A stretch of 64,000 nucleotides of DNA, taken from positions 62,001 through 126,000 of the forward strand of contig NZ_REEZ01000006.1 of assembly GCF_003990445.1 (NCBI RefSeq), read 5' to 3'. The translations under genes were made by a program, and so were the position numbers. Below are positions 27,556 to 43,683 of the stretch, piece after piece. Positions within the stretch are counted from its first letter, which is position 1. Every line of letters starts with the position of its first letter. This stretch comes from Pararhodobacter zhoushanensis. Its GTDB lineage: Bacteria; Pseudomonadota; Alphaproteobacteria; Rhodobacterales; Rhodobacteraceae. The notes under the pieces were generated by a model. It did not search any database and had not been told where the DNA came from. It saw only the letters and a program-made list of their open reading frames with translations.

Positions 27556-27587
27556 AGCGCCTTGGCCCCCGGCTTTGGCGCTTTTTT
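27556..27587 (+). terminator. Terminator of tRNA-Glu
   Basis: Stem AGCGCC/GGCGCT (27556-27561, 27577-27582) with additional GCC/GGC pairing inside, followed at once by six T. A canonical intrinsic terminator 29 bp after the tRNA. Confidence 0.85.
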
Positions 27588-27686
27588 GTTTTGGTCACAA
27601 CGCGGGTTTCCCGGCGCGGGCACTTCAGGCACACCAAAACGGGCGGCGCTGGGGAAGCGCCGCCCGTGGTCATTCTGCCGTCAGGG

Positions 27687-29324
27687 TCAGGCGTCGACGT
27701 CTGCCGGGGTGGTGACGAAACCCGGGAAGCCGTTGGCAACCTCGTCGGCGCACATCTCGCGGTATTTGTTCAGCCCGCCCGCAAAGATCGGGAAGAAGCG
27801 CGGTTTGCCAGCGATGTTGGTGCCGGTGTACCAGGTGTTGGCCTTGGGCATCAGCGATTGCTCGGCGATGGCGACGACCTTGTGCATATAAGCAGATTCG
27901 GCCTCGGGGCGGGGTTCGATGCCGGGCAGCGCGTGGGTGCGCAGGTGGTCGATGCAGTCGCAGATCCAGTCAGCGTTCTGCTCGTTCAGCAGCACGAAAT
28001 TAGCCAGCGCCGAAGGGCCGTTGGCCCCGGCGATCATGAAGAGATTGGGGAAGCCCTCCATCATCAGACCCAGATACGATTGCGCCCCGCCCGCCCATTT
28101 CTCGCGCAGGCTGCGCCCGTCGCGGCCGGTAATATCGACCGCCATCATCGCGCCGGTCAGCCCGTCATAGCCGGTCGCGCCGATGATCACGTCCAGCTCG
28201 ATATGCGCGGTGGCGGTGCGGATACCGGTGGCGGTGATTTCCTGAATCGGATCGGTCAGGCAATCGACAAGGGTGACGTTGTCGCGGTTGAAGGCCTCGT
28301 AATAGCCGCTGTCCAGACAGGGGCGACGGGCAAAGATCGGATAGCCGTGAGGGGTCAGGACCGCGGCGGTTTTCGGGTCGTGGACGGTTTCAGCGATCTT
28401 GCGGCGGACGAAATCGGCAACGATATCATTGGCCTGCTGGTTGAACAGCAGATCCGAGAAAAGGCCGAGGAACTCCAGCCCGCCCCGGTCCCACGCGTCT
28501 GACATCAAACGCTCGCGCTCGGCCACAGACACGCTGAACAGCGGGCGGCTGGTGATGGCGCGCACGCCGCCGGTGAACGAGTTGCGGGCCAGGGCACGCA
28601 GCTGGGGGTAATGTTCCTTGATCTGGGCGACGTAAGCGGCATCCAGTTTGCGGTTGCGCATCGGCAGGGTGAAGCTGGGCGTGCGCTGGAACACGGTAAG
28701 CGCCTGCGCCTGCTGCGCGACGACGGGAACGATCTGGATCCCCGTCGAGCCGGTGCCAATGACGCCGACGCGCTTGCCTGCGAAATCGACGGTGTGGTGG
28801 GGCCAGCGGCCCGAGAGATACAGCTCGCCGGCAAAGCGGTCGGCCCCCGGCACGTCGATGCCCTTGGGGACGGACAGCGGGCCGGTGGCCATGACCAGAT
28901 AGGTGACCTCGAAGACCTCGCCGCCCTCGGTCTCGACCCGCCACAAGGCGCGGGCGTCATCATAGCGCATCGTCGTGGCGCGGGTGTTGAACTGCACGTC
29001 GCGGCGCAGGTCCAGTTTGTCGGCGACGTAATTGGCGTAGGCCAGAATTTCGGGCTGGGCCGCGAATTGCTCAGACCAGGTCCAGTCCTGCATGATCTCG
29101 TTCGAGAAGGAATAGCAGTAGTCGATGCTCATCACGTCGCAGCGCGCGCCCGGATAGCGGTTCCAGTACCACACGCCGCCGACGTTATCGCCCGCCTCGA
29201 TCGCACGCACCGACAGCCCCATACCGCGCGCCTTGTGCAGCATGTACATGCCGCCAAAGCCCTGCCCGATGATCAGCATGTCGAGCTGCGTTGCGCCCCC
29301 GGTTTGCCCGCCTGTGTTGGTCAT
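27687..29324 (-). CDS. Flavin-containing (Baeyer-Villiger-type) monooxygenase
   Basis: A 545-aa class B flavoprotein resembling cyclohexanone and phenylacetone monooxygenases. The FAD loop is GQGFGG (20-25), the NADPH loop GTGSTG near 190. Between them the Baeyer-Villiger fingerprint FxGxxxHxxxWP reads FAGELYLSGRWP (about 164-175): the central His is Leu. The enzyme would insert oxygen next to a ketone to give an ester or lactone, or has changed chemistry. It stands alone facing left, with the shared 14-bp operator 84 bp upstream of its start, placing it in the island regulon with the hydrolase, SMP-30 and beta-oxidation genes. Confidence 0.88.
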   Translation of the reverse strand: MTNTGGQTGGATQLDMLIIGQGFGGMYMLHKARGMGLSVRAIEAGDNVGGVWYWNRYPGARCDVMSIDYCYSFSNEIMQDWTWSEQFAAQPEILAYANYVADKLDLRRDVQFNTRATTMRYDDARALWRVETEGGEVFEVTYLVMATGPLSVPKGIDVPGADRFAGELYLSGRWPHHTVDFAGKRVGVIGTGSTGIQIVPVVAQQAQALTVFQRTPSFTLPMRNRKLDAAYVAQIKEHYPQLRALARNSFTGGVRAITSRPLFSVSVAERERLMSDAWDRGGLEFLGLFSDLLFNQQANDIVADFVRRKIAETVHDPKTAAVLTPHGYPIFARRPCLDSGYYEAFNRDNVTLVDCLTDPIQEITATGIRTATAHIELDVIIGATGYDGLTGAMMAVDITGRDGRSLREKWAGGAQSYLGLMMEGFPNLFMIAGANGPSALANFVLLNEQNADWICDCIDHLRTHALPGIEPRPEAESAYMHKVVAIAEQSLMPKANTWYTGTNIAGKPRFFPIFAGGLNKYREMCADEVANGFPGFVTTPADVDA

Positions 29325-29408
29325 TCTCCGCCCCTTGATCGCTGTTTCCTCTCTTCGCTAGGGGCTGGGGCGGGCGCGGGCAACACAAGCGGGCTGCGGG
29401 CGCACAAC

Positions 29409-29422
29409 ATCACATCCGTGAA
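29409..29422. promoter_or_regulatory. Island operator site E (monooxygenase)
   Basis: ATCACATCCGTGAA has the arms ATCAC/GTGA(T) of the palindrome found at 41908, with two changes. It lies 84 bp upstream of the monooxygenase start, the same distance as the sites at 37752 and 43670. Weaker than the other sites in sequence, supported by position. Confidence 0.5.
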
Positions 29423-29461
29423 GTTACGCGGGCGGAAAACAGTGCGATTTCAGTGCACAAG

Positions 29462-29497
29462 GCAAGGCCCCGGCAGGGTCATCTGCCGGGGCCTTGC
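29462..29497 (-). terminator. Terminator of the liv operon
   Basis: A perfect 15-bp stem, GCAAGGCCCCGGCAG/CTGCCGGGGCCTTGC, with a 6-base loop, 18 bp past the stop codon of livM. A T-run is lacking, but the stem is very stable and it separates livM from the monooxygenase promoter. Confidence 0.7.
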
Positions 29498-29515
29498 TGT
29501 ACGAGGGGACCGCGA

Positions 29516-30487
29516 TCAGCGGCGCGCGCGCAGGCGGATGAGCAATCCGCGCACAAAGCCCACCACCCCCGTTGGCATGAAGAATACCATGATCAGCAAG
29601 AAGCCCGCGTAGATCGCCGAGGTGGCAGATTGCGAGACCTGCTCGGCCAGATTGGGCACGAACTGGATGAACACCGCCCCCACCAGCGGCCCCAGAATGG
29701 TCCCTGCCCCGCCGACCATGACCGCAACCAGAAGCAGGATTGATTTCATCAGATCGAAGCTGTCGGGCGAGACGTATTCGGTGATCAGCGTATAGAGCGC
29801 GCCTGCCAGCCCGGTGAGCAGGCAGCTGAGCGCGAAGGTGGCCAGCTTGGTACGCGTGACATTCACCCCCATCGAGGCGGCGGCGATCTGGTTCTCCTTC
29901 ACCGCGATGATCGCGCGGCCCATGCGGCTGCGAAACAGCGCGGCGGTGCCAAAGAAGGCGATCAGCACCACGGCAAGCACGAGGTAGAACACGAAGACCT
30001 CGCGCGACAGCGGCAGCCAGTCGGGCACGGGCGAGTTGAACACCATCACCCCCTGCACGCCGCCGGTCCATGTCTCGATGCTGCGATGTTTCAGGATCTG
30101 CGGCATGGCCAGCGCCAGCGCGAAGGTGGCCAGCGCCAGATGGTGCCCCTTGAGCCGCAGCGAAGGCCAGCCGAAGAGCACACCGAAGGCCAGACAGACC
30201 AGCCCCGCGATCACCACCGCAGGCAACCAATGCAGCGCAAAGCTGTCCATGCCGACGGCCGCGACATAGGCCCCGATGGCAAACACCGCGCCGTGACCAA
30301 GGGACAATTGCCCGCCGTAGCCGACGACGATGTTGAGCCCCATCACCGCCAGCGCCATGCACAACACCATGGTGATCTGGAACAGAAAGAAGCCTTTGAC
30401 CAGCATCGGCAGGGCGACAAGCAGCGCAATCGCCGCGACGATCAGCAGCGCGCCAATGCGACGCGAGGAAGAGTTCGGGGTTTGCAT
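29516..30487 (-). CDS. livM: Branched-chain amino acid-type ABC permease LivM
   Basis: A 323-aa inner-membrane permease with about nine to ten spans and the LivM signature GYGGQLSLGHGAVFAIGAYVA near 55-75. It pairs with LivH (one base upstream) to form the channel of a hydrophobic-substrate importer. Liv-type systems in catabolic clusters often carry aromatic, alicyclic or fatty acids rather than leucine; the neighbours favour that here. Last gene of livK-G-F-H-M. Confidence 0.9.
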   Translation of the reverse strand: MQTPNSSSRRIGALLIVAAIALLVALPMLVKGFFLFQITMVLCMALAVMGLNIVVGYGGQLSLGHGAVFAIGAYVAAVGMDSFALHWLPAVVIAGLVCLAFGVLFGWPSLRLKGHHLALATFALALAMPQILKHRSIETWTGGVQGVMVFNSPVPDWLPLSREVFVFYLVLAVVLIAFFGTAALFRSRMGRAIIAVKENQIAAASMGVNVTRTKLATFALSCLLTGLAGALYTLITEYVSPDSFDLMKSILLLVAVMVGGAGTILGPLVGAVFIQFVPNLAEQVSQSATSAIYAGFLLIMVFFMPTGVVGFVRGLLIRLRARR

Positions 30488-30488
30488 C

Positions 30489-31361
30489 TCAGACCCTCGT
30501 TGCGGTTTTGCGGCCCAGCAGGCCCTGTGGCAGCAGCATCAGCACGGCCACGATGATCAGCAGCGCCAGCGAGAGTTTCATGTCGTTGCCAACCACATAG
30601 GCCCCCGCGAGGTTCTCGATCACACCGATCAGGATGCCGCCGACAATCGCGCCCCAGGGGCTGTCGAGCCCGCCCAGAAGCGCGGCGGCGAAGGCGTAGA
30701 TCAGCACACCGATCATCATGTTGGGGTCCAGAAACACGATGGGCGCGACCAGAAGCGCGGCCACCGCACCGACGGCGGCGGCGATGCCCCAGCCCAGCGT
30801 CAGCAGCCAGTCGACCGGCACACCGCTGAGCCGGGCCGAGACCGGGTTATCCGCCGTCGCGCGCATGGCAAGGCCAAGGCTGGTGTGCGACAGGAACAGG
30901 TAGAGCAAGCCTGCGATGACCACGACGGTCACGATGCTGCCTACTTCATGCGCGCTCAGGAAGGGGACGACCGACGAGGTGCCCGCGCCAAAGATCGACG
31001 GGAACGCCTTGAGATCATGGCCGAAGATCCAGCCCGACAGGGAGTTTATACCGATAAAGAGCGCGATGCAGGCGACGACAAAGGTTGTCGCCGACGCGCT
31101 GTGAAAGCGGCGGATCACCACCCGTTCGATCACCATGCCCGACACAAAGGCAAAGAGCACCGCCACGACAGCGGCCAGCCACAGCGGCAGGCCCAGGCCC
31201 ACGGCGAACAGCGCGACATAGGCCGAGAAGGTCGCCATTTCGCCTTGGGCGAAATTGACGTGATGGGTGGTTTTGTAGATCAGCACCAGCGCCACCGCGA
31301 GGCAGGCATAGATGCTGCCGATCGCGATGCCCGAGAGCGTCAGTTGGATGACTTGTTGCAT
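30489..31361 (-). CDS. livH: Branched-chain amino acid-type ABC permease LivH
   Basis: A 290-aa permease with about eight spans. The family segment VNFAQGEMATFSAYVALFAV (about 34-54) and a C-terminal GAIVGGILIGVIENLAGAYV region identify LivH. It lies six bases after livF and one base before livM, so all are co-transcribed. Forms the membrane channel with LivM. Confidence 0.92.
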   Translation of the reverse strand: MQQVIQLTLSGIAIGSIYACLAVALVLIYKTTHHVNFAQGEMATFSAYVALFAVGLGLPLWLAAVVAVLFAFVSGMVIERVVIRRFHSASATTFVVACIALFIGINSLSGWIFGHDLKAFPSIFGAGTSSVVPFLSAHEVGSIVTVVVIAGLLYLFLSHTSLGLAMRATADNPVSARLSGVPVDWLLTLGWGIAAAVGAVAALLVAPIVFLDPNMMIGVLIYAFAAALLGGLDSPWGAIVGGILIGVIENLAGAYVVGNDMKLSLALLIIVAVLMLLPQGLLGRKTATRV

Positions 31362-31367
31362 GGCTTC

Positions 31368-32076
<709 letters not shown>

Positions 32077-32084
<8 letters not shown>

Positions 32085-32883
32085 CGGGGGCCCCCAGATA
32101 GGCTTGGACGACAGCCTCGGAGCCCTGCACCTGCGCAGGGGTTCCGTCAGCGATCTTGCGGCCAAAGTTGATGGCGACGACCTGCTCGGCCACGCGCATG
32201 ATCAGGTCGAGATGGTGCTCGACCAGCAGCACGCTGACGCCGAACGCATCGCGCATTTTCAGGATGAAGGCGCGCAGATCCTCGACGCCTTCGTGGTTCA
32301 GACCGGCGGCGGGTTCATCCAGAAGCAAAAGCTTTGGCTGCATGACCAGCGCGCGGGCAAATTCGACCCGCTTTTGCGCGCCGAAATTCAACTGGCTGAC
32401 CAGCGTGTCGGCCTGATGGGCCATGCCCAGCCGCTCGAGCGTTTCCAACGCGGCCTTACGGCCTGCGGCTTCATCGCGGCGCGCGCGTGGCAGGCCCAGC
32501 ATTGCGGTGACAAAGCCGCTGCGCATGCGGACGTGATTGCCGACCAGCACGTTCTCCAGCACCGACATGCCCGGAAACAGCGCGATGTTCTGGAACGTGC
32601 GCCCGATGCCCAGCGCCGCCATACGGTGCTGCGGCAGGGACAGGATGTCGGTGCCATCAAAGCGGATGCGCCCCGCGCTGGGGCTGTAGATCCGCGAAAG
32701 CACATTGAAAAGCGAGGTCTTGCCCGCCCCGTTCGGCCCGATGATGCCGCAAATCTGGCGCGGGGCGACGCGAAAGGAAATATCGTCGAGGGCTGTGATC
32801 CCGCCAAACTTGAGCGAGATCCCCTCGACACTCAGCAAGGCCTCTGGTTTCAGCAGGGCCTCTGGCCGGCTGGTGTCGGTCAT
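32077..32883 (-). CDS. livG: ABC transporter ATP-binding protein LivG
   Basis: A 268-aa ATPase with Walker A GPNGAGKTS near 48-56, the LivG-specific region IGRTFQNIALFPGMSVLENV near 95, the signature region LNFGAQKRVEFARAL (an unusual variant of LSYGxQRRLEIARAL) and Walker B LLLLDEPAAGL. Partner of LivF. The first 16 residues contain a short repeat (PEALLKPEALLSVEG). Confidence 0.93.
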
Positions 32884-32946
32884 GGATTGTCCCCGGATTT
32901 GGAAAATATACGGGCCGGCATGGCCTTGGCCAGCCGCCCCGCAGGA

Positions 32947-34149
32947 TCAGAATTCGACGACGTCGCCGAAGAGATCATAGCTCTGGCCGTTGAACCGCTC
33001 GAGCTGGATGCCGCGGATCATCTGATAGTTGTCGGGGCTGGTGGCCAGCGGGATACCGGGCAGCATCAGCGGGGCATTGACCGTGGACAGGTTGCGGGCG
33101 ACATCGAGGATGTTCTGCCGTGTCAGGGTATCGCCCGCCTCGCGCAGGATCTGCAGCAGCACATGGCCGGTGTTATAGCCGCTGATCACCGAGCCGTTGG
33201 TGGGTTCGGCATCGGGGTAATACCCTTCGATCGTGTCCATGTAATCGCGATAGGCCTGCGTCTGCTGGAAGGCTTCATCCGAGGCATCCTGCTGCGTGGC
33301 GCTGGTGATGATCCCGGTCGAGATCTCGACCCCTGCCGGCACCAGCGAGGTCTGGATCACGCTGGCGACCGACCCCATGTAGCGCGCAGGCGTCCAGCCC
33401 AGATCGGCGGCCTTGCGGATCGCCTGTGCCACCGCGCGCGGCACGCCGAACAGCATCAGCGTGTCGGCCCCCGTCGCCTGCAGGCTGACGATCTGGCCAT
33501 CAACCGAGGGGTCCACCACTTCAAAGCTGAGCGCGCTGGCGATGGTCGCGCCGGTGCCTTCGATCCCGCGTTCGACCCCCTCCAGGTATTCGCGGCCCAG
33601 ATCGTCGTTCTGATACAGCACGGCTATCGACGCCGTGGGGTTCTCGGCCACGGCGTTCTGCGCGAAGGCATAGCCTTCCAGCCCATAGGGCGACAGCAGG
33701 CCCGAAACGGTCCACGGGTACGTCTGCGGGTCGTTCCAGCGGGTGCCCCCGGCCAGCAACAACAGATGCGGCACCTCGCGTTGGTTCAGGTAGCGCTGAA
33801 TGGCGATATTATGCGCCGATCCGACGGGTGCCGCGATGAACAGGACTTCATCGCGCTCGACCAGACGGCGGGTCTGTTCCATCGTGCGCGCCGGGTTGTA
33901 GGCGTCATCATAGCTGATGAAGTTGATCTGACGGCCGTTGATCCCGCCCTCGGCATTGGCGCGGGCGATCACGGCGGCGATCATGCGGCCATTGACCGCA
34001 AAGACCGAGGCCGGGCCGGAATAGGGCATGGTGTTGCCGATGCGGATCTCGGTGTCCGAGGCACCGGGGCCGTATTGCGCCTGCGCCAGCGCCGGACCGG
34101 CCGCCATGGCGAGCATCGCAAGAGCCCCTAGCGTGTTCTTGATGGTCAT
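32947..34149 (-). CDS. ABC transporter substrate-binding protein (LivK-like)
   Basis: A 400-aa periplasmic receptor of the Leu/Ile/Val-binding (PBP1) fold. The signal peptide ends near PALAQAQ (about 23); the mature start is SDTEIRIGNTMPYSGPASVF. Length and sequence suggest a divergent subgroup seen with aromatic or alicyclic substrates, so the ligand is unlikely to be an amino acid. The start at 34149 is preferred over 34155 because GGAGG is then eight bases away. First gene of the liv operon, divergent from the SMP-30 gene. Confidence 0.9.
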   Translation of the reverse strand: MTIKNTLGALAMLAMAAGPALAQAQYGPGASDTEIRIGNTMPYSGPASVFAVNGRMIAAVIARANAEGGINGRQINFISYDDAYNPARTMEQTRRLVERDEVLFIAAPVGSAHNIAIQRYLNQREVPHLLLLAGGTRWNDPQTYPWTVSGLLSPYGLEGYAFAQNAVAENPTASIAVLYQNDDLGREYLEGVERGIEGTGATIASALSFEVVDPSVDGQIVSLQATGADTLMLFGVPRAVAQAIRKAADLGWTPARYMGSVASVIQTSLVPAGVEISTGIITSATQQDASDEAFQQTQAYRDYMDTIEGYYPDAEPTNGSVISGYNTGHVLLQILREAGDTLTRQNILDVARNLSTVNAPLMLPGIPLATSPDNYQMIRGIQLERFNGQSYDLFGDVVEF

Positions 34150-34314
34150 GGTCATTTCCTCCCTGTTGTGGCCCTTGCAGGCCGGTCGTTCCGCGCCAGA
34201 CGCCCAAGCGGCACGGGTCAGCGGGCTGACCGGGGGTAGCTGGGGGGCTGGTGTCGTCTCCTCGACCCGGAGTATTGCGAGGGGCTGGCAGCTTGCCAAT
34301 TTGGGGCGGCGACA

Positions 34315-34328
34315 ATCACACTTATGAT
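34315..34328. promoter_or_regulatory. Island operator site A2 (weak)
   Basis: ATCACACTTATGAT keeps the outer ATCA/TGAT arms and matches 11 of 14 positions of the perfect site at 41908. It lies 165 bp upstream of the liv binding-protein gene and 31 bp from site A1, so it may be a second, weaker binding site. Confidence 0.4.
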
Positions 34329-34359
34329 TGCACCCTGCGTCCGCCTTGCTCGGCGCGAT

Positions 34360-34373
34360 ATCCCATGCGTGAT
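34360..34373. promoter_or_regulatory. Island operator site A1
   Basis: ATCCCATGCGTGAT fits the shared consensus ATCNCATRYGYGAT. It lies 98 bp before the SMP-30 start and 210 bp before the liv operon start. Confidence 0.6.
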
Positions 34374-34471
34374 ATGGCGCGGTCCCCGGCCAAAATACTT
34401 GAGTCCCCTCCCCCTGCGGGCCGATCCACGCTCAAGCCCCGCTGAGTGGCGGGCACGACGAGGGAGGCTTC

Positions 34472-35374
34472 ATGACCATCCGTATTGACCTGCATTCACC
34501 GCAAACGGCGTTGCTGGGCGAAAGCCCGCTGTGGGATGTCGAGCGCCAGCGCCTGTGGTGGGTGGATGCGCGCGCGGCCTCGATCCGCTGCGCCGATGCT
34601 GACGGCACGGTGCTCAGCGACTGGACGATGCCGGGGCAAGTGGGCAGCATCGGGCTGGCGCAGGGCGGGCTGATCGCCGCGCTTGAGGACGGGTTTTATC
34701 ACATCGACGGTCAGACCGGCGCCGCGCATTGCGTGGCCCGCGTGACGCCCCCCGCACCGGGCCTGCGCCTGAACGACGGCAAGGCCGACCGCGACGGACG
34801 GTTTGTGAGCGGGCACATGCACCCCGGCGGCGGCACGGCGGGCGAGCTGTGGCAACTGGGTCTGGACGGGCGCGTGACGCAGCTGGAGACCGGTCTGGGC
34901 ATCACCAACGCGCTGTGCGTCTCGCCCGATGGCCGCCAGCTCTATCTGGCGGATTCGATGGACGGGGTGATCCGGCGCTATGACTATGACGGCGCGGCCG
35001 GGCGGCTGTCGAACCGGATCGATCTGATCGACTGCCGCGCGCAGGGCTCGGGACCGGACGGCGCGACGGTCGACAGCGATGGGCGGCTGTGGGTGGCGCT
35101 GGTGCTGGCGCACAAGATCGCCTGCTATGCGCCCGATGGCAGCTTGCTGCAGCTGATCGACAGCCCGGTGCAGTATCCGTCGTGCCCGGCCTTTGGCGGC
35201 GCAGCGATGGACACGCTCTTTGTCACCACCATCGCGCATTCCGGTCACAGCCTGATCAGCACCAGCGCTGACGCGGGCCGCGTCATGGCGATCCGGGGCC
35301 TTGGGGCCACGGGTCTGCCCGAAGCGGTCTGGCACCCCACCCCCGCCCGCCAAGGAGCCGCACCATGGAGCTGA
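34472..35374 (+). CDS. SMP-30/gluconolactonase/LRE-family protein
   Basis: A 300-aa six-bladed beta-propeller hydrolase. The conserved metal ligands appear in place: Glu in LLGESPLWD (about 17), Asn in GLGITNALCVSPDG (about 149) and Asp in GSGPDGATVDSDG (about 197). The family opens lactones or related esters with Ca or Zn. In this island it could open the lactone made by the monooxygenase at 27687-29324. It begins a plus-strand unit that continues into the acyl-CoA dehydrogenases (10-bp overlap). Confidence 0.88.
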   Translation: MTIRIDLHSPQTALLGESPLWDVERQRLWWVDARAASIRCADADGTVLSDWTMPGQVGSIGLAQGGLIAALEDGFYHIDGQTGAAHCVARVTPPAPGLRLNDGKADRDGRFVSGHMHPGGGTAGELWQLGLDGRVTQLETGLGITNALCVSPDGRQLYLADSMDGVIRRYDYDGAAGRLSNRIDLIDCRAQGSGPDGATVDSDGRLWVALVLAHKIACYAPDGSLLQLIDSPVQYPSCPAFGGAAMDTLFVTTIAHSGHSLISTSADAGRVMAIRGLGATGLPEAVWHPTPARQGAAPWS

Positions 35375-36543
35375 GCCTCGACGCCAAAGACACCGCCTTT
35401 CGCGACGAGGTGCGGGAATTCTTCAGCACCGGCGTGCCCGATAGCTGGCGCGACCGCGTGCGTGCCGGGCTGCGCCTGTCACCTGACGAGCTGACCGGCT
35501 ACCAGCAGCGCTTGGCCGCGCGTGGTTGGGGCGCACCGACATGGCCGGTTGAATACGGCGGCACCGGCTGGACGCCAACGCAGCTGTGCGTCTTCTGGTC
35601 CGAAGCCGCGCGCGCCGACGCGCCGCATCAGTTCCATCAGGGGTTGGAGCTGATCGGGCCGATCATCTTCTCATACGGGTCGCCCGAGCAGAAAGACTAC
35701 TACCTGCCGCGCATCATTCAGGCGCAGGACTGGTGGTGTCAGGGCTATTCCGAACCCGGTGCCGGGTCGGATCTGGCCAGCCTGCGCGCGCGCGCCGACC
35801 GCGACGGCGATGACTATGTGCTCAACGGCCAGAAGACATGGACCAGCTACGCGCATGTCGCCTCGCAAGTGTTCCTGCTGGCGCGCACCTCGCACGAGGC
35901 ACGGCGGCAGCAGGGGATTTCGCTGATCCTCGCGCCGATGGACACCCCTGGCTTCCGTATCAATCCCATCGCCACGATGGATGAGAAGTACCACACCAAC
36001 GAGCTGTTCATGGACAACGCCCGCGTCCCGGTCGCCAACCGTGTCGGGGACGAAGGGCGCGGATGGGAATATGGCAAGGTGCTGCTGGACCGCGAGCGGA
36101 TGGTGGCGGCGGCGAATGTGATCTTTCTGGGCCAGATCGTGCGCGGCATCACCGACGCGGCGCGGCGGCGGAAGATCCGGGGTCGCGCCCTGGCCGATGA
36201 TCCGGGGTTCGCGGCAAAGCTGGCGCAGTTCACGGTCGAGCTGACGACACTGCAAGCGATGGTGCTGCGGTTGCTCGACGACATGACGCGCGGCGCGGAT
36301 TCGGGACCGCGGGGATCGATGGTCAAACTGCGCTGGTCACAGCTCTATCAGGCGGGCACCGCCCTGTGGGTCGAGGCCCTGGGACCAGAGGCCGCGCAGT
36401 TCGCCGCGCTGGACGGGGCCACCCTGCCCGCCGACATGCCCGCCGCGCTGCAAGGCGCGCTCTATGCGCGGGTGACGTCGATCTATGGCGGGTCCAGCGA
36501 GATCCAGCACAACATCATCGCGCGCCGCGCGCTGGGTCTTTGA
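35365..36543 (+). CDS. Acyl-CoA dehydrogenase, catalytic-type subunit
   Basis: A 392-aa flavoenzyme of the large acyl-CoA dehydrogenase type. The flavin/substrate motif GYSEPGAGSDLASL lies near 127-140, the C-terminal YGGSSEIQHNIIARRAL near 374-390. AAGGAG precedes the ATG, which lies inside the end of the SMP-30 gene. Followed nine bases later by a second, more divergent dehydrogenase. Such pairs (PimC/PimD, steroid FadE pairs) form mixed tetramers acting on cyclic or branched acyl-CoA. Confidence 0.92.
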   Translation: MELSLDAKDTAFRDEVREFFSTGVPDSWRDRVRAGLRLSPDELTGYQQRLAARGWGAPTWPVEYGGTGWTPTQLCVFWSEAARADAPHQFHQGLELIGPIIFSYGSPEQKDYYLPRIIQAQDWWCQGYSEPGAGSDLASLRARADRDGDDYVLNGQKTWTSYAHVASQVFLLARTSHEARRQQGISLILAPMDTPGFRINPIATMDEKYHTNELFMDNARVPVANRVGDEGRGWEYGKVLLDRERMVAAANVIFLGQIVRGITDAARRRKIRGRALADDPGFAAKLAQFTVELTTLQAMVLRLLDDMTRGADSGPRGSMVKLRWSQLYQAGTALWVEALGPEAAQFAALDGATLPADMPAALQGALYARVTSIYGGSSEIQHNIIARRALGL

Positions 36544-36552
36544 GGGGGTGCT

Positions 36553-37668
36553 ATGGAACTGACTTTCAACAGCGAACAGATCATGCTGGCCGACAGCGTG
36601 GGACGCTATGGGCTGGACAAATGGCCCGCCATCAACCGCCACAAGCTGCTGGCCGGGGAACAGGACGGCTTCCGAGAGCGCTGGCGCGAGATGGCCGAAC
36701 TTGGCTGGACCCTGTTGCCCATCGCCGAAGACGACGGCGGGCTGGGCGGTAGCGCGGTCGATGTCATGGCGCTGGCCGAGGGGCTGGGCCGTCACCTGAT
36801 CGCGGTGCCCTATGTCACCAGCTGTGTGTTGGTGCCCGCGCTGATCGGTGGGGTGCCCGGGGGCGAGGATCTGCTGGGCGCGCTGGGTGAAGGCAAGGCT
36901 TTCGCCGCCGCCGGGGTGCTTGAGGCCGAGGGCGGCGGCGATCCGGCATGGGTGACAACGCGGGCCGAGAAGGTCGGCGGGGCGTGGCAGCTGACCGGGA
37001 TTAAGGAACACGTCGAGGACGGCGGCTGCGCCGATGCGTTTGTGGTCTCGGCCCGTGTGGAGGGCGAGGCGGGCGACGCCGAGGGGATCGGGCTGTTTCT
37101 GGTCGACCGCGCCGCCCTCGGCGACGGTGTCGCGCGGTTCCGCGCGGTCGACGGGCACCTGCACGCGCGGTTGACGCTGCAGGGCACGCCCGCGCTGGCA
37201 CTGGGTGAGCCGGGACAAGCCCTGCCCCGGATCGTTGCAGCGCTGGACCGTGCGATCTGCGCGCATCTGGCCGAGGCGACCGGCTCGATGGAAGCCGCCA
37301 CCGCTGCAACGGTCGAGTACCTTAAAACCCGCGAGCAGTTCGGCCAGCGCATCGGCAGCTTTCAGGCGCTCCAGCACCGCGCGGTGGACATGACCGTCGC
37401 CTGCGAGGAAGCGCGCGCGATCACCTGGCACGCGACGCTGTCGCTGGACGCCGCCCCCGGCAGCCGCCAACGCGCGGTCTCGGCGGGCAAGGTGCGTGTC
37501 GGGCAAAGCGGCGTCTATGTCGCCCAGCAGGCGGTGCAACTGCACGGCGGTGTGGGCTTTTGCGAAGAGCTGATCGTCAGCCACCACCTGCGCCGCCAGA
37601 TGATGCTGGACATGGCAATGGGCGGGCAAGGCCACCATCTCAGCCGGGTTGCGCAGCTGTCGGTCTGA
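36553..37668 (+). CDS. Acyl-CoA dehydrogenase, divergent partner subunit
   Basis: A 371-aa acyl-CoA dehydrogenase-fold protein. The TEPGAGSD-type flavin motif is not recognisable at its usual place (GVLEAEGGGDPAWVTTRAEK instead), but the C-terminal region YLKTREQFGQRIGSFQALQH and LHGGVGFCEELIVSHHLRRQ is well kept. This mosaic is typical of the partner subunit of heteromeric dehydrogenases. Probably assembles with the product of 35365-36543. A strong hairpin follows the gene. Confidence 0.88.
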   Translation: MELTFNSEQIMLADSVGRYGLDKWPAINRHKLLAGEQDGFRERWREMAELGWTLLPIAEDDGGLGGSAVDVMALAEGLGRHLIAVPYVTSCVLVPALIGGVPGGEDLLGALGEGKAFAAAGVLEAEGGGDPAWVTTRAEKVGGAWQLTGIKEHVEDGGCADAFVVSARVEGEAGDAEGIGLFLVDRAALGDGVARFRAVDGHLHARLTLQGTPALALGEPGQALPRIVAALDRAICAHLAEATGSMEAATAATVEYLKTREQFGQRIGSFQALQHRAVDMTVACEEARAITWHATLSLDAAPGSRQRAVSAGKVRVGQSGVYVAQQAVQLHGGVGFCEELIVSHHLRRQMMLDMAMGGQGHHLSRVAQLSV

Positions 37669-37695
37669 CCCTCCCCGGACCCGAAACGCAGCGCC

Positions 37696-37724
37696 AAGGC
37701 CCCGTCTGGCAGGACGGGGCCTTT
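37696..37724 (+). terminator. Terminator of the SMP-30/dehydrogenase unit
   Basis: A perfect 11-bp stem AAGGCCCCGTC/GACGGGGCCTT with a 6-base loop ending in TTT, 27 bp after the stop codon. Confidence 0.7.
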
Positions 37725-37751
37725 CGCCTGCCCGCCTTGGTGCCTGCGACT

Positions 37752-37765
37752 ATCGCGTATGGGAT
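37752..37765. promoter_or_regulatory. Island operator site B
   Basis: ATCGCGTATGGGAT; read on the other strand it is ATCCCATACGCGAT, matching the consensus. It lies 82 bp before the enoyl-CoA hydratase start and just after the terminator of the previous unit, so it marks a new promoter. Confidence 0.65.
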
Positions 37766-37847
37766 TAAGTGCGTAAAAACAGGTCTTTGCATGCCCTTGG
37801 CCGGGGCCGCTGGTAAGCTGACCTCCGAACCATCTGGAGGAAAACCC

Positions 37848-38612
37848 ATGAGCAAGATCCGCCTCGACGTGAAGGATTTCGTCGCCGTCGTCACCCTCGA
37901 CAACCCGCCGGTCAACGCGCAGCCCATGGAGGTTCTGGAAGAACTGACCGCGGTGTTCGACAGCTTCAACGACCGCGACGATGTCCGCGTCGTGGTGCTG
38001 ACCGGTGCGGGCAAGATGTTCTCGGCGGGTGCTGACCTGAAGCAGCGCCCCGATCTGAGCATTCCCGGCGCCCGCTGGCGGCGCAACCGCATCGTGCGCG
38101 AGGTCTCGTATGCCATCGCCGACAACGCCAAGCCGGTGATCGCTGCCGTCAACGGCCCGGCCTTGGGCGCGGGTCTGGGGCTGGTGGCCAGCTGTGATGT
38201 CATCGTCGCCTCGGAAACCGCCGTGTTCGGCCTGCCCGAGGTGGACGTGGGTCTGATGGGCGGGGGCAAGCACGCCGGACGGATCTTCCCGCATTCACTG
38301 GTGCGCCGGATGATGCTGACCGGCTACCGCGTGCCCGCCGCCGAAGCTTTCCGCCGCGGCGTGATCGAAGCCTGCCTGCCCGCTGACGAGCTGATGCCCT
38401 GGGTGATGGACATGGCGACGCAGATTGCATCGAAAAGCCCGCTGGCGACCAAGATGGCCAAGGACAGCATGCGCACCATCGAGAACATGACACTGCGCGA
38501 CGGCTATATCTATGAACAGGGCAACACCGCCAAGCTGTCGACGACGCATGATGCCGCCGAAGCCGTGCGCGCCTTCGTCGAAAAGCGCGCGCCGCAGTTC
38601 ATCGGATCGTAA
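37848..38612 (+). CDS. Enoyl-CoA hydratase/isomerase family protein
   Basis: A 254-aa crotonase. The oxyanion segment MFSAGADLKQRP is near 59-70, the second glycine-rich loop NGPALGAGLGLVASCD near 98-113, and the catalytic Glu in FGLPEVDVGLMGGG near 126. It would hydrate or isomerise an unsaturated CoA ester made by the dehydrogenase pair. The ATG has TGGAGG upstream at good spacing. It begins a four-gene run with the ligase, second crotonase and hydrolase. Confidence 0.92.
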   Translation: MSKIRLDVKDFVAVVTLDNPPVNAQPMEVLEELTAVFDSFNDRDDVRVVVLTGAGKMFSAGADLKQRPDLSIPGARWRRNRIVREVSYAIADNAKPVIAAVNGPALGAGLGLVASCDVIVASETAVFGLPEVDVGLMGGGKHAGRIFPHSLVRRMMLTGYRVPAAEAFRRGVIEACLPADELMPWVMDMATQIASKSPLATKMAKDSMRTIENMTLRDGYIYEQGNTAKLSTTHDAAEAVRAFVEKRAPQFIGS

Positions 38613-38617
38613 GCGCG

Positions 38618-40198
38618 ATGGGCTATCCCTGGAATTTTGGCGATCTGCTGGATGCGACCGCCGCTCAGGTGCCGCCCGACCGCCCTGCCATCGTGCAGGG
38701 CGACCGGGTGATCGCGTGGCCGGCCTTTGACCAAGCCACCAACCGGCTGGCCCGCGCGATGATCGCCGCCGGGCTGGAGCCGGGCGCGCGGGTGGCCATT
38801 CTCGCGCGCAACGTGCCGGAATATATCGAGATTTCTGCCGCCGCCTTCAAGGCACGGATGGCCAGCGTCAACGTCAACTACCGCTACACCACGCCTGAAG
38901 TCGCGCATCTGATGAGCGATTCTCAGGCCGCGATGCTGCTCTATCAGCCTGAGTTCGCTGCCGTTGTCGCCCCCCTGGCCGAAAGCCATCCAGACCTGCA
39001 ACTGGTCGAGATCGAGGCGGGCGGTCGGTATGGCGACTGGGTCGCGCAGGGCGACGGTGCGCCTCTGGGCATCGCGCGCTCGGGCGATGACGGGTATCTG
39101 ATCTACACCGGCGGGACCACCGGCAAACCCAAGGGCGTCGTCTGGCGCGCTGCCGATGCGCGGACAACGCAGCTGGAATCCCCGGCGGCCAGTTCGGTGC
39201 CGCAGTCGCTTGAGGACCACATCGCCGTCGTGCGCGCCAATACCGCGCCGCACCGGGTGCTGCCCGCCTGCCCGCTGATGCATGGGGCGGGGATGACCTC
39301 GTCGCTGGCGGAACTGGTCAACGGTGGCACGGTGGTCTTGCTGCCGGACGGGCCCTTCGATGCCGAGGTTCTGCTGGACACGGTGCAACAGCACCGCGTC
39401 ACGCGGATCCTGATCGTCGGCGATGTGTTCGCCCGCCCGATGGTCGAGGCCCTGCAGCGCGATCCCGGGCGCTGGGACACGTCGTCGCTGCGTATCATCT
39501 CGTCCGCTGGGTTGATGTGGAGCCGTGAGATGAAACAGGCGCTGATTGCAGCGGTACCGCAGGTGATGCTGGTGGATATTCTGGGCGCGTCCGAGGCGTC
39601 GGGGTTGGGCTATGCCGTCACCTCGGCCACACGCGAGACCCCGACCGGCTGGTTCGAGCCCGGTCCCAAGACGGTGCTGATCGATCCCGAAACGCTGCGC
39701 GTTCTGCGCCCTGACGAGCCCGGCACCGGCTGGATCGCGCGGCATGGGGCGGTCGGCAGCGGCTATTTCGGTGATCCGGAAAAGACCGCTGCAACCTACC
39801 GCGAGATTGACGGCATTCGCTATGCGATCCCCGGCGATCTGGCGGCGCGTGATACCGACGGGCGGCTGCGTCTGATCGGGCGCGGCAGTCAGGTGATCAA
39901 CACCGGCGGTGAAAAGGTTTTCGCCGAAGAGGTCGAAGAGGCGCTCAAACGCGCGCCGGGCGTCACCGATGCCATCGTGATCGGTGTCCCCGATGAGACA
40001 TGGGGCAAGGCTGTGGTGGCGGTGATTGCGGTGCGCGAGGGCTATGATGAGGCGACGGCGCGGTTGGCGCTGCAGGCGGATCTGGCGCGCTACAAGCTGC
40101 CCAAACGCATCGTGGTGGTCGACACCCTGCCCCGCCATCCCAGCGGCAAGAGCGACTATCGCGCGGCGCTGGACATCGTTCTGGGCGGCGCGGCCTGA
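38618..40198 (+). CDS. Acyl-CoA ligase (AMP-binding)
   Basis: A 526-aa adenylate-forming enzyme that activates a carboxylic acid to its CoA thioester. The ATP loop YTGGTTGKPKG is near 162-172, the hinge GRGSQVINTGGEKVFAEEVE near 425-444, and the catalytic Lys in HPSGKSDYRAAL at the end. It resembles FadD3/steroid-side-chain and medium-chain ligases; the substrate is unknown. Five bases after the hydratase. In the proposed pathway it activates the acid released by ester or lactone opening. Confidence 0.93.
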   Translation: MGYPWNFGDLLDATAAQVPPDRPAIVQGDRVIAWPAFDQATNRLARAMIAAGLEPGARVAILARNVPEYIEISAAAFKARMASVNVNYRYTTPEVAHLMSDSQAAMLLYQPEFAAVVAPLAESHPDLQLVEIEAGGRYGDWVAQGDGAPLGIARSGDDGYLIYTGGTTGKPKGVVWRAADARTTQLESPAASSVPQSLEDHIAVVRANTAPHRVLPACPLMHGAGMTSSLAELVNGGTVVLLPDGPFDAEVLLDTVQQHRVTRILIVGDVFARPMVEALQRDPGRWDTSSLRIISSAGLMWSREMKQALIAAVPQVMLVDILGASEASGLGYAVTSATRETPTGWFEPGPKTVLIDPETLRVLRPDEPGTGWIARHGAVGSGYFGDPEKTAATYREIDGIRYAIPGDLAARDTDGRLRLIGRGSQVINTGGEKVFAEEVEEALKRAPGVTDAIVIGVPDETWGKAVVAVIAVREGYDEATARLALQADLARYKLPKRIVVVDTLPRHPSGKSDYRAALDIVLGGAA

Positions 40199-40239
40199 GC
40201 GCCGCCCGCCCATTCCCTGCCCCCCTGAAAGGATCGCCG

Positions 40240-41019
40240 ATGGCCCCGTTCGAGCACATTCGTCTGACGCGTGACGGCGCGATTGCCCGGCTGACACTGA
40301 ACCGTCCCGCACGGCTGAATGCGCTGATCCGGCCGATGCAGGCTGAACTCTCCGCCGCGCTGGATCTGCTGGAGGCCGAGCCACCGCAGGTGCTGATCCT
40401 GACCGGCGAAGGGCGCGGGTTCTGCGCGGGGCAGGATCTGACCGAACGCTATCCGCAGATCGCGGCGGGTGAGGCTGTGCATCTGGGGGCGTCGCTGACA
40501 CAGACGTATAACCCTTTGATCCGGCGCCTGAATGCGCTGCCCTGCGTGATCATCGCGGCGGTAAATGGCGTTGCGGCGGGGGCCGGAATCGGGCTGGCAC
40601 TGACGGCGGACATCATTCTGGCGGCACGCGAGGCGCGGTTCCTGATGGCCTTTGGCAAGGTCGGTCTGGGACCGGATGCCGGCGTCAGCTGGGCGCTTCC
40701 CGAGCGGATCGGCAGCCGCCGCGCGCTGGCACTGGCGCTGACCGGTGGCGGGATCGACGCGCAGACCGCGCTGGACTGGGGGCTGGTCTGGGCACTGCAT
40801 GACGCGGGTGAACTGGCAGCGGCGACGCAAGAGCTGGCGCTGGTGCTGGTGGCGGGCTCGGCGCAAGCACAGCGCGCCGCCAAGCAGCTGCTGCGCGAAA
40901 AGGCCCCCAGTCTGGAGGCTGCCCTTGCGCGCGAAAGTGCGTGTCAGGACGCGCTGGGGCACACCGATTTCTACCGCGACGCCGTTCTGGCCTTCGCCGC
41001 GCCCAAACCTGCCCGCTGA
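40240..41019 (+). CDS. Enoyl-CoA hydratase/isomerase (PaaG-like)
   Basis: A 259-aa crotonase closest to PaaG. The loop GFCAGQDLTERYP is near 64-76; the PaaG-type Asp is kept in KVGLGPDAGVSWALPERIG (about 142-160), where hydratases carry Glu. PaaG moves double bonds in ring-derived CoA esters, so an isomerase role is plausible. Forty bp after the ligase. Confidence 0.9.
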   Translation: MAPFEHIRLTRDGAIARLTLNRPARLNALIRPMQAELSAALDLLEAEPPQVLILTGEGRGFCAGQDLTERYPQIAAGEAVHLGASLTQTYNPLIRRLNALPCVIIAAVNGVAAGAGIGLALTADIILAAREARFLMAFGKVGLGPDAGVSWALPERIGSRRALALALTGGGIDAQTALDWGLVWALHDAGELAAATQELALVLVAGSAQAQRAAKQLLREKAPSLEAALARESACQDALGHTDFYRDAVLAFAAPKPAR

Positions 41020-41035
41020 CCGGATCACAGACGCC

Positions 41036-41902
41036 ATGCCCTATGCCCACAACGGACCCGTCGCGGTCCATTACGACACGCAGGGTACCGGGGTGCCGGT
41101 GGTGATGCTCGCGGGCGCGGGGCGTCCGGCGTCGGATTTCGACGCGCTGTTTTGCGCGCCGCTGCTGGCGCAGGGGTTCATGCCGCTCAGGATCGACAGC
41201 CGCGATACCGGGCGTTCGGCCAGCTTTGCCGGGCAGCCCGCGCGGCTGGCGCAGGTCCGGCAACGCGCGCTGGGACAGGATGGTGCGCCGCCGCCCTACG
41301 CGCTGGATGATATGGCCGGGGATGTGCTGGCGGTGCTGGACCACGCCGGGATAGAGCGCGCGCATCTGGTCGGGCGGTCGCTGGGGGCGATGGTGGCGCA
41401 GGCGGTGGCGATTGCCGCGCCCGCACGGGTGTTGAGCCTGTCACTGATCATGGCCTCAAGCCGCACCCTGCCCGCGCAGGTGCCCGATGCGGTGCTGGAC
41501 CGGCTGGAGGCCGAACAGGTCACGACCGCCGATGACTATATCGCCCGCCAGTTGCGCGTGGCGGCGGCGAATGGGCTGGCGCAGGATTATGACGCGGCGC
41601 GGATCGCCGGGGAAGCGCGCCTTGCCTGGGCGCATGGCATAGCGCCGGGCGCGACGGCACGGCATTTCGCCGTCAGTCTGGCGGCAGGCGATCTGCGGCC
41701 CGGTCTGACGGGCCTGCACCTGCCCGCGCTGGTTCTGCACGGGCGACAGGATGCGCTGATCCCGCTGATCCGCGCCGAGGAATGCGCCGCCGCCCTGCCC
41801 CACGCGCAGCTTGAGGTGATCGAGGACATGGTCCATGACGGCCCCCCGCGCCTGCGCCGCCGCTGGGGTATGCGGATTGCGGCGCATCTGGGCAGCCTCT
41901 GA
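41036..41902 (+). CDS. Alpha/beta hydrolase
   Basis: A 288-aa alpha/beta-hydrolase-fold protein. Nucleophile elbow GRSLGAM near 116-122, acid candidate HGRQDALIP near 240, and catalytic His in DMVHDGPP near 267. N-terminal MLAGAGRPASDFD gives the oxyanion hole. In the island it could hydrolyse the ester or lactone from the monooxygenase. Sixteen bases after the PaaG-like gene; the open frame reaching back into that gene is not used. Confidence 0.88.
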   Translation: MPYAHNGPVAVHYDTQGTGVPVVMLAGAGRPASDFDALFCAPLLAQGFMPLRIDSRDTGRSASFAGQPARLAQVRQRALGQDGAPPPYALDDMAGDVLAVLDHAGIERAHLVGRSLGAMVAQAVAIAAPARVLSLSLIMASSRTLPAQVPDAVLDRLEAEQVTTADDYIARQLRVAAANGLAQDYDAARIAGEARLAWAHGIAPGATARHFAVSLAAGDLRPGLTGLHLPALVLHGRQDALIPLIRAEECAAALPHAQLEVIEDMVHDGPPRLRRRWGMRIAAHLGSL

Positions 41903-41907
41903 CCTGC

Positions 41908-41921
41908 CATCACATATGTGA
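41908..41921. promoter_or_regulatory. Island operator site C (perfect palindrome)
   Basis: ATCACATATGTGAT is a perfect 14-bp palindrome five bases after the hydrolase stop and 111 bp before the IclR start. It is the most symmetrical of the island sites and suggests autoregulation. Confidence 0.7.
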
Positions 41922-42032
41922 TTCCCCCTCGCCCCGCGCCGATACTTCGCGCATGGTCGAAAAGCTGCCGTAAGCTCATCCCAGAGGACCGGCCAGCACC
42001 GGGAGAGGCCAGCACCGTGGGAGGAGCGTGTG

Positions 42033-42815
42033 ATGCAGGGACTTGCAGTGAAATCAACGTTGCGGACGTTCGAGGTTCTCGAATTCTTCCGCGAACAGCG
42101 GCGGCCCCTCAGGCTGAATGAGATCTACAAAGCCCTGAACTATCCGCAGTCGAGCACGACGAACCTGCTCAAGAGCATGGTGATGACGGGCTATCTCAAC
42201 TACAACCGCAAGACGCGGATGTACCTGCCGACGATGCGGGTGAGCAGTCTGGGCAGCTGGCTGCACAGCGTCATCCATAACGACGGCGATCTGCGCAAGC
42301 TGGTCGATACGGTTCAGGCGCGCACCGACGAAACCGTCGGGGTCGTGGCGCAGAACGATCTGTTCATCCAATACATCATGCTCAAGACCCCGACGCATGA
42401 GTTCAAGATGCCGCCCAGCGAAGGGGATATGCGGCTGCTGATCGACTCGTCGGCCGGGCTGACGATCCTCAGCCGGTTGCGTGACAGCGCCATCGAGAAA
42501 TTCTACCGCTTCACCAAGTATCATTACCCTCGGCTGGAGTACTTCGCCAGTTACGCCGACCTGATGAAAGAGATCCGCTGGGTGCGCTATATCGGCCATT
42601 GCTACATGCCGATGCTCCCGACACCCGAGGTTGCCTCGGTTGCGATTCCGCTTGAGGAAGAGATGTTCGGCATCCCGCTGGCGCTGGGGGTGGGCGGGCT
42701 GCAACCGCGCATTGCCGCACGCAAGGAAGAACTGCTGGCGATCATGCACGAGGCGGTGGCCGAGTTCCACGAAACCAGCCGCCAGAACAGCAGCGGGGCT
42801 ATGGCCGCCGAATAG
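42033..42815 (+). CDS. IclR-family transcriptional regulator
   Basis: A 260-aa regulator: winged helix at about 5-65 (LRLNEIYKALNYPQSSTTNL) and an IclR effector domain from about 75. GGAGGAG precedes the ATG; a GTG one codon earlier is possible. IclR proteins sense catabolic intermediates and act as repressors or activators at short palindromes. This is the only regulator inside the island, and the only candidate seen for the repeated 14-bp palindrome. Confidence 0.9.
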   Translation: MQGLAVKSTLRTFEVLEFFREQRRPLRLNEIYKALNYPQSSTTNLLKSMVMTGYLNYNRKTRMYLPTMRVSSLGSWLHSVIHNDGDLRKLVDTVQARTDETVGVVAQNDLFIQYIMLKTPTHEFKMPPSEGDMRLLIDSSAGLTILSRLRDSAIEKFYRFTKYHYPRLEYFASYADLMKEIRWVRYIGHCYMPMLPTPEVASVAIPLEEEMFGIPLALGVGGLQPRIAARKEELLAIMHEAVAEFHETSRQNSSGAMAAE

Positions 42816-42827
42816 GCGGCCAAAGGG

Positions 42828-43586
42828 TCAGCGGTTGAAGGCGTGCCCCATCCCGCCATCGACGGCAAGCGACTGGCCGGTGACAAAACCCGCGCGTTCT
42901 GACGCCAGCCAGAGCACGGCCTGCGCGATGTCCTCTTCGGTGCCGATGCGACCCAGCGGCGTGCTGGCCTTGCGCGCGGCGAAGGTCTCGGCGTCAAGCA
43001 TGGCGCGCACTGCGTCGGTTGCGATGGTCGAGGGGGCGACGGCGTTGACGCGGATACCGTGCGGCCCCAGCTCGACCGAGGCCGCGCGGGTCATGCCATC
43101 GACCGCTGCCTTGACGCCGGAATAGAGCAGCGTGTTGGCGCTGGCGATCCGCCCGGCCATCGAGCCGATGTTGACCACACTGCCCCCGCCCCGCGCGCGC
43201 ATCGCCGGCACGGCGGCTTGCAGGCCCCAGACGATCCCCGCCATGCCGACGCCGACCATGCGCGACAAGACGTCGGGCTCGATCTGCTCGATCGGCTCGT
43301 AGCGGTTCCACATCGCGTTATTGACCAGAATATCCAGCCCGCCGAACGCCTCGACGCAGCGTGCCACGGCCCGCTGCATCGCCGCGCGGTCGGACACATC
43401 GGCACCGATGCCGATCGCGGTGCCCCCTGTGGCCGTAATCCCCTCGGCAGCGGTCTGCGCCCAAGCGTCTTTCAGATCGACCAGCACCACCGACGCCCCG
43501 GCCTCGGCCAGTGTGGTGGCGATGGCGCGGCCCAACCCGCGAGACGCGCCGGTAACCAGCGCGATTTTGTTGCTCAACTCAGTCAT
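42828..43586 (-). CDS. SDR-family oxidoreductase
   Basis: A 252-aa short-chain dehydrogenase. Cofactor loop TGASRGLG (about 12-19), Asp in VVLVDLKD pointing to NAD preference, NNAMW near 88, Ser in NIGSMAG and Tyr/Lys in YSGVKAA (catalytic triad). It could oxidise a cyclic alcohol to the ketone used by the monooxygenase, or a hydroxyacyl intermediate. The start at 43586 is preferred over 43643. It converges on the IclR gene; the shared operator is 83 bp upstream. Confidence 0.9.
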   Translation of the reverse strand: MTELSNKIALVTGASRGLGRAIATTLAEAGASVVLVDLKDAWAQTAAEGITATGGTAIGIGADVSDRAAMQRAVARCVEAFGGLDILVNNAMWNRYEPIEQIEPDVLSRMVGVGMAGIVWGLQAAVPAMRARGGGSVVNIGSMAGRIASANTLLYSGVKAAVDGMTRAASVELGPHGIRVNAVAPSTIATDAVRAMLDAETFAARKASTPLGRIGTEEDIAQAVLWLASERAGFVTGQSLAVDGGMGHAFNR

Positions 43587-43669
43587 GGTTTCCCCAACCC
43601 GGTACACTGGGGCAAACCTTGCCCCTCCCGCGATCCGGCGCAAAGCGCGCAGCCTTTCGGCGCGTCACA

Positions 43670-43683
43670 ATCGCATACGCGAT
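43670..43683. promoter_or_regulatory. Island operator site D
   Basis: ATCGCATACGCGAT, arms ATCGC/GCGAT around four bases, fits the consensus exactly. It lies 83 bp upstream of the SDR start. Confidence 0.65.

Follow-up and report, generated by a model that had tools for sequence, protein, structure and literature searches.

A palindrome as the probable operator of an IclR regulon shared by uptake and breakdown genes of a monooxygenase island in Pararhodobacter zhoushanensis

The gene island studied here, from the alphaproteobacterium Pararhodobacter zhoushanensis, lies in a window of 64,000 nucleotides (positions 62,001 to 126,000 of contig NZ_REEZ01000006.1; coordinates below count from the first letter of the window) and carries on its two strands a liv-type transporter, a Baeyer-Villiger-type flavin monooxygenase (BVMO), further catabolic enzymes and iclR, the gene of an IclR-family regulator. 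This arrangement raises the question whether and how genes for uptake and breakdown on opposite strands are controlled together. A first-pass annotation had proposed that a recurrent palindrome ties them into one IclR regulon. We conclude that the 14-bp palindrome is in all likelihood the operator of the island's own IclR regulator, common to the uptake and breakdown genes since it precedes both transporter and enzyme operons, and most likely serves in their activation.

Four strong copies of the palindrome are found in the island. ATCCCATGCGTGAT (34360..34373) stands in the divergent gap between livK and the SMP-30 gene, ATCGCGTATGGGAT (37752..37765) upstream of the hydratase operon and ATCGCATACGCGAT (43670..43683) upstream of the gene for a short-chain dehydrogenase (SDR), all three being evidenced by word match, genome scan and matrix score and unchanged in a near relative, genome G018. 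The strongest, ATCACATATGTGAT (41909..41922), is located upstream of iclR, and the identical word recurs before the orthologous iclR in other loci. Two weak copies complete the set, TTCACGGATGTGAT on the minus strand (29409..29422; 13.5 bits), 84 bases before the ATG of the BVMO gene, and a second one in the livK/SMP-30 gap (34315..34328; 12.7 bits), both unchanged in G018. All six words listed by the first-pass annotation are thus present, with the correction that the third starts at 41909 and not at 41908, and its consensus ATCNCATRYGYGAT is exact at 34360, 41909 and 43670 on the plus strand and at 37752 on the minus strand. The spacings that it gave also hold, with 82 bases from the 37752 site to the hydratase ATG (37848), 83 from the 43670 site to the SDR ATG (43586) and 84 from the 29409 site to the monooxygenase ATG (29324).

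The core word ATCNCRTRYGNGAT occurs exactly, on either strand, at four places in the window, where 100 dinucleotide shuffles yielded a mean of 0.08 and a maximum of 1. The genome (4,834,952 bases, 56 contigs) holds the exact word at 11 places, four of them inside 9.3 kb of the island, and the TA-centred form ATCNCRTAYGNGAT has only three in 4.83 Mb, all three in the island; the 34360 site is not TA-centred, unlike the other three strong sites. All seven exact places off the island read ...TGCGCGAT and none of them is TA-centred, which rules out a general spread of the exact motif through the genome. Exact copies thus cluster in the island instead of occurring at random frequency elsewhere, and the proposed regulon survives this comparison. 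When one mismatch was allowed, 32 off-island places emerged, and of the 14 inspected, 12 were inside open frames (called by a simple rule, so that some may be antisense) and two outside (C1:466470 and C23:526374). A control with the reversed word (13 vs 177; 2 vs 72) was left unused as unfair, since that word holds TAG/CTA, which should be uncommon in a genome of this type. At three mismatches the window showed no enrichment of the motif (79 observed vs 84 expected), so the word by itself is no evidence for the weak copies at 29409 and 34315; what speaks for them is position and conservation, and chance is a possible origin of both. The fifth-ranking word by matrix score, at 41024 on the boundary of the hydratase 2 and hydrolase genes, was treated as chance.

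Conservation was analyzed at two distances. In G018 the island is colinear at 95.5% DNA identity, and all six sites, the weak two included, are identical (0/84 site bases differ, compared to 95/1123 of the other intergenic bases); random placement of six 14-mers in the same gaps gave zero differences in 409 of 20000 trials. For more distant relatives, a contig scan with the island IclR as a single protein retrieved nothing related, and a scan with a three-sequence alignment did find relatives, in 48 named loci. As orthologous we counted 36 loci with an IclR 42-61% identical, by their record titles mostly from sphingomonads, Caulobacter and Phenylobacterium, with one from Aestuariicella. This set includes a Novosphingobium plasmid, where an IclR of 54.9% identity adjoins SMP-30, both dehydrogenases and BVMO and ATCACATATGTGAT is found upstream of iclR. 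L058, on the same contig as L043, was dropped, L091-L105 were not used in the counts, and L077 and L030 apparently represent the same locus, of which L077 alone was counted.

With a matrix trained on the four strong window sites only, 19 of the 36 loci showed a site of at least 16 bits no more than 300 bp before iclR, the mean for 300 permuted palindromic matrices being 0.04 and their maximum 2. At 14 bits or more the count was 25/36, versus 0/12 for loci with a distant IclR (31-36% identity). The 36 loci contain 109 matches of at least 14 bits, and 69 of these lie within 300 bp upstream of island-gene homologues, where 8.7 were expected; 84 matches are not upstream of iclR, and 44 of them still precede homologues of island genes. 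Five of the 69 belong to coding sequence, namely the last part of the island gene in front. The remaining 64 (39 without iclR) stand before iclR (25), BVMO (10), hydratase 1 (10), SDR (7), the dehydrogenases (7), the synthetase (3) and SMP-30 (2). As the sites precede the same gene types across loci, the regulon is conserved although gene order changes. The sites are therefore kept in related islands, before orthologous iclR genes and the same enzyme genes, and an operator before iclR and neighbouring operons that persists in orthologous loci is what defines an IclR regulon. With the palindrome located before the main operons and preserved with the regulator gene in many other bacteria, the island very likely forms one co-regulated unit, as judged from sequence.

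The scan also covered 14 loci whose IclR proteins are more distant, and a match of at least 14 bits was present in seven of them (four with one, three with two). Motif-like words of 18-19 bits, ATCGGATATGYGAT and ATCACATACATGAT, were seen at L040:8583, L040:12663 and L042:10684, near IclR genes 24-32% identical, and are perhaps related operators of neighbouring clades.

The regulator gene (42030..42815, plus strand) encodes a protein of 261 amino acids that matches HTH_IclR with 45.3 bits (cut-off 22) and IclR_C, marginally, with 24.3 bits (cut-off 24), in line with the N-terminal HTH_IclR domain, C-terminal IclR_C domain and length of about 250 residues that characterize the IclR family. Proteins of this family act on DNA as dimers or tetramers together with an effector. 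Its operator can be compared to the motif GKTYCRYW3-4RYGRAMC of IclR-family group 1 (Suvorova and Gelfand 2021, PMC8222616; here and below, its main text and Table 1). The inner 12 bases of the island consensus, TCACATATGTGA, by eye fit YCRYW4RYGR, although single window sites other than 41909 depart from this core at some positions, and like the group-1 operators the island sites are palindromic, of even length and upstream of iclR and neighbouring catabolic operons. They differ in having A where group 1 has T at position 3 (ATC..GAT vs TTC..GAA), and they are situated further upstream, with centres mostly near -90. The outer group-1 positions (K-T / A-M, G/C) are likewise not matched: over 82 site-gene pairs position 3 is A, the flanks are rich in A/T and the outermost G/C are missing. 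Among the 20 motifs in Table 1 of that survey, compared by eye, the island word is absent. Together with the concentration in the island and the conservation before iclR and enzyme genes, this group-1 core argues for the shared-operator IclR regulon across both strands that had been proposed.

Does the regulator activate or repress? Distances from operator to start codon were taken from 82 site-gene pairs, at most seven of them from the window, thinned at ≥80% identity over 194 bases, and in 44/82 the operator stands 70-99 bp before the start codon. Spacing to a -10 element was counted at sites 60-160 bp before a gene, thinned at ≥75% identity over 234 bases. In 29 of 60 such sites of other loci, the dinucleotide TA occurs 61-63 bases after the first base of the operator, whereas 162 other windows of width three gave a mean of 2.4 and a maximum of 9. 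The signal is carried by sites before enzyme genes (25/42), with 4/18 at iclR, and when two coding words are removed it amounts to 25/40 (162 other windows: mean 1.4, maximum 9). A conserved -35 (TTG) was sought at the same thinned sites and not found. In the window, candidate -10 elements lie 62 bases after the first base of the operator for BVMO (TAGCGA, 29355..29360, minus strand), hydratase 1 (TAAGCT, 37814..37819, plus strand) and iclR (TAAGCT, 41971..41976, plus strand), and a weak candidate, CAAGGT (43616..43621, minus strand), is equally far from the SDR operator. Facing livK is a sigma-70-like pair, TTGGCA-17-AATACT (34271..34299, minus strand), of a kind found at near-chance frequency (4 found, 1.9 expected); if this pair is used, the 34315 site would be about one turn closer to its promoter.

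If the TA at +62 is taken as the -10 element, the operator would be centred near -67 relative to the expected start of transcription, a position typical of activators. A fixed spacing between operator and -10, no conserved -35 and a centre near -67 together suggest that the regulator most likely activates, and we consider it more probably an activator than a repressor, a balance that the removal of coding words does not alter. Class I-like activation, with the operator at a set position ahead of a poor -35, may be what this arrangement reflects. The fixed spacing in favour of activation is new with respect to the first-pass annotation, as is the sister operator described below.

The strongest competing explanation retains the regulon and its palindrome but assigns the opposite sign, with a bound repressor that blocks or loops the promoters until an inducer releases it. 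The IclR family comprises repressors, activators and dual regulators, as the main text of the survey states (PMC8222616), and PheR, an IclR protein of Sphingobium, is described as a repressor in the available text of its report (PMC13273656). The variable spacing at the promoters of iclR itself would also suit a repressor. Yet before enzyme genes the -10-like TA follows the operator only after a long and constant interval, with or without the coding words, and 70-99 bp separate operator and start codon in 44/82 pairs; the survey, in its main text, places most IclR-family site centres between -20 and -80 from the gene start, with a top at -22. The conserved -35 missing at other loci also speaks against repression, and we regard a repressor as rather unlikely, if quite conceivable.

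Several observations weigh against a shared, activating operator. The weak copies at 29409 and 34315 are insignificant as words, and the G018 comparison is modest on its own (about 2% by random placement). No 14-bit site was found upstream of iclR in 11 of the 36 orthologous loci, four of which (L048, L051, L066 and L078) have no such match anywhere; at 18 bits the count is 17/36 and two of the 300 permuted matrices equalled the real count. Forty of the 109 matches are not upstream of island-gene homologues, 15 of the 109 are inside the coding sequence of such homologues, and 3 of the 12 loci with a distant IclR show a match of at least 16 bits somewhere. Related loci were left unthinned in the 36-locus matrix counts, the 69/109 count, the match counts corrected for coding words and the comparison of 25/36 with 0/12. 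As for geometry, iclR promoters show no sharp spacing (4/18 at 61-63, 5/18 at 51-53), the SMP-30 promoter of the window has no good -10 at 62 bases, and the palindrome of a sister clade is close to the start codon, more like repression.

A second alternative holds that another DNA-binding protein recognizes the palindrome and that the IclR gene is a bystander. The far-upstream position of the operator, unusual for the family according to the main text of the survey (PMC8222616), would be accounted for in this way, and binding by IclR is here something we infer. The presence of the site, however, tracks the IclR clade (25/36 vs 0/12), exact copies of the word gather in the island, whereas a general regulator would have its sites spread, and the consensus core fits group 1. 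No other regulator family was seen among 20 annotated recurrent neighbour families, 12 of which had no Pfam match, with 17 of the 45 listed families left unannotated. We judge a bystander IclR to be very improbable. That GC-rich intergenic words merely resemble one another by chance, for which the lack of enrichment at three mismatches and 177 strand matches at ≤1 mismatch in the genome might be cited, is scarcely credible, given an independent set of distant loci with the same sites and the shuffle result for exact matches, 4 vs 0.08, by which chance is ruled out for the four strong sites.

Returning to the operator of the island's own IclR, the site, its concentration in the genome, its conservation, the gene set and the spacing are computed results, and from them we infer that IclR binds and activates, as well as inducer, substrate and start points. 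An IclR dimer would bind ATCAC-N4-GTGAT before iclR, the SDR gene, the hydratase-synthetase-hydratase-hydrolase operon and the SMP-30/acyl-CoA dehydrogenase operon with its divergent liv transporter, and probably also before the BVMO gene. With inducer bound, the regulator would activate the enzyme promoters from an operator upstream of the -10-like element. By family, SDR proteins form ketones from alcohols, BVMOs turn ketones into esters or lactones, hydrolases open the product, and the remaining enzymes belong to beta-oxidation. The putative pathway would thus convert an alcohol to a ketone by SDR and the ketone to an ester or lactone by BVMO, followed by hydrolysis, activation with CoA and beta-oxidation, and the island substrate is probably a ketone or cyclic ketone that is taken up and degraded. 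For this IclR clade with its BVMO/SMP-30/acyl-CoA-dehydrogenase clusters, found in many alphaproteobacteria and Aestuariicella, the analysis provides an operator open to testing, a list of regulon members and the geometry of the promoters; it predicts activation and would help to identify the substrate of the island.

Biologically the regulon is well supported and unexceptional in kind, and its operator is an addition to a known type. PcaU, PobR, MhpR and PbaR are likewise single IclR proteins that control catabolic genes. MhpR is an activator. For PcaU, PobR and PbaR an activator role is given by reference titles in PMC8222616. They have other operator words, and the island protein scores 34.8 bits against a cut-off of 284.75 for the PcaR/PcaU/PobR family (NCBIfam TIGR02431) and is not a member. 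In the sphingomonad Sphingobium sp. SHPJ-2 a catabolic cluster is likewise under an IclR-family protein, PheR, but this one is a repressor with a GC-rich operator containing a GCAACG core (PMC13273656). The words sphingomonad, Caulobacter, Rhodobacter, Baeyer and monooxygenase do not appear in the main text of PMC8222616, where PbaR of Sphingobium is listed. No report of the island operator was found in the open-licence PMC literature, the two operator words occurring as text in none of its papers; the supplementary site lists of PMC8222616 are outside this coverage and may hold a prediction. Search listings for IclR with Baeyer-Villiger in the same literature returned nothing relevant.

The genus also carries paralogous BVMO/IclR/SDR/SMP-30/liv clusters (L024 and L033-L039) whose IclR is about 32% identical to that of the island. 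They contain the same gene types and a palindrome upstream of iclR, with the difference that the operator, TTCACACTTGTGAA, is close to the start codon. The cluster of P. zhoushanensis itself, L024 on contig C54, is shared with other members of the genus and has TTCACACTTGTGAA upstream of its iclR. Either TTCACACTTGTGAA or TTCACATTTGTGAA is located just before the iclR start codon in 8 of 9 aligned sister loci, a related palindrome that also speaks for the regulon; L024 of P. zhoushanensis and L039 of G018 are almost the same locus, and the ninth locus, from Pseudosulfitobacter, differs. At ≤1 mismatch TTCACANWTGTGAA has five places in the genome, three within 11 kb on C54, of which one is upstream of the sister iclR, one between that iclR and BVMO, and one, C54:78547, outside the cluster stretch read. 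With respect to group 1 as given in the main text of PMC8222616, the sister operator with its TTCAC agrees in the T of position 3, but shows a C where a central W is called for.

A joint reading, which we offer tentatively as somewhat short of probable, would combine an inducer-dependent activator regulon acting from about -67 with the presence of two parallel monooxygenase/IclR regulons and possible cross-talk. Operators at some iclR promoters and livK would then be about one helical turn closer, and one regulon would belong to an acquired island, the other being common to genus members. A single base pair in each half-site (ATCAC vs TTCAC) would be the main barrier between the two, and cross-talk might occur at the BVMO gene, whose site (TTCAC...GTGAT) is mixed. 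With two paralogous regulators and their similar operators side by side, the cell offers a natural pair for studying how specificity is maintained.

On the minus strand the island reads BVMO, livM, livH, livF, livG and livK. The best PDB match of the BVMO (27687..29324; FMO-like Pfam) is phenylacetone monooxygenase 1w4x (E 2e-171), and among solved structures phenylacetone and steroid monooxygenases are its nearest. The transporter consists of a LivM-like ABC permease (29516..30487; LivM model, below cut-off), a LivH-like ABC permease (30489..31361), LivF-like (31368..32084, likely start 32084) and LivG-like (32077..32883) ATPases, these three named by eye from the sequence, and a LivK-like periplasmic binding protein (32947..34155, likely start 34155; Peripla_BP_6, 164.6 bits). 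The plus strand begins with an SMP-30/gluconolactonase-like hydrolase (34472..35374; SGL Pfam, 240.1 bits) and two acyl-CoA dehydrogenases, PimC-like (35365..36543) and PimD-like (36553..37668), both assigned by Pfam and by model matches below cut-off. It continues with enoyl-CoA hydratase 1 (37848..38612; NF005073, above cut-off), an acyl-CoA synthetase (38618..40198; NF005863, above cut-off), enoyl-CoA hydratase/isomerase 2 (40240..41019; family matches, with no model shown above cut-off), an alpha/beta hydrolase (41036..41902; Pfam scan) and iclR. Past iclR, at the other end, the SDR gene is again on the minus strand (42828..43586; Pfam scan). A SnoaL-like protein family recurs in related clusters (L058:13908-14573; 17 loci); it was not seen among the island genes of the window, where no search aimed at SnoaL was made.

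Among 19 genomes of the genus the island IclR occurs only in P. zhoushanensis and G018 (98% identical), other matches being 24-39% identical, and none of 393 other genomes of the family has a match at E 1e-50. A tRNA-Glu gene immediately precedes the island (27453-27687). The block formed by the end of recJ and this tRNA-Glu is matched in 18 of the 19 genus genomes, in some of them closely in the tRNA part only. With the island IclR present in just two of these 19, the tRNA gene may have been the point of insertion of the island. ARAGORN calls of a tRNA-His (45952-46043, inside an open frame) and a tRNA-Lys (63826-63896) are below the threshold of the Rfam tRNA model and probably false. At the other side the island is adjoined by a gene for an RsgA-like GTPase (43981-45048), matched at E 1e-60 in only 8 of the 19 genus genomes including its own; with 99% identity in G018 and 45-61% in the others, this gene may be an accessory copy.

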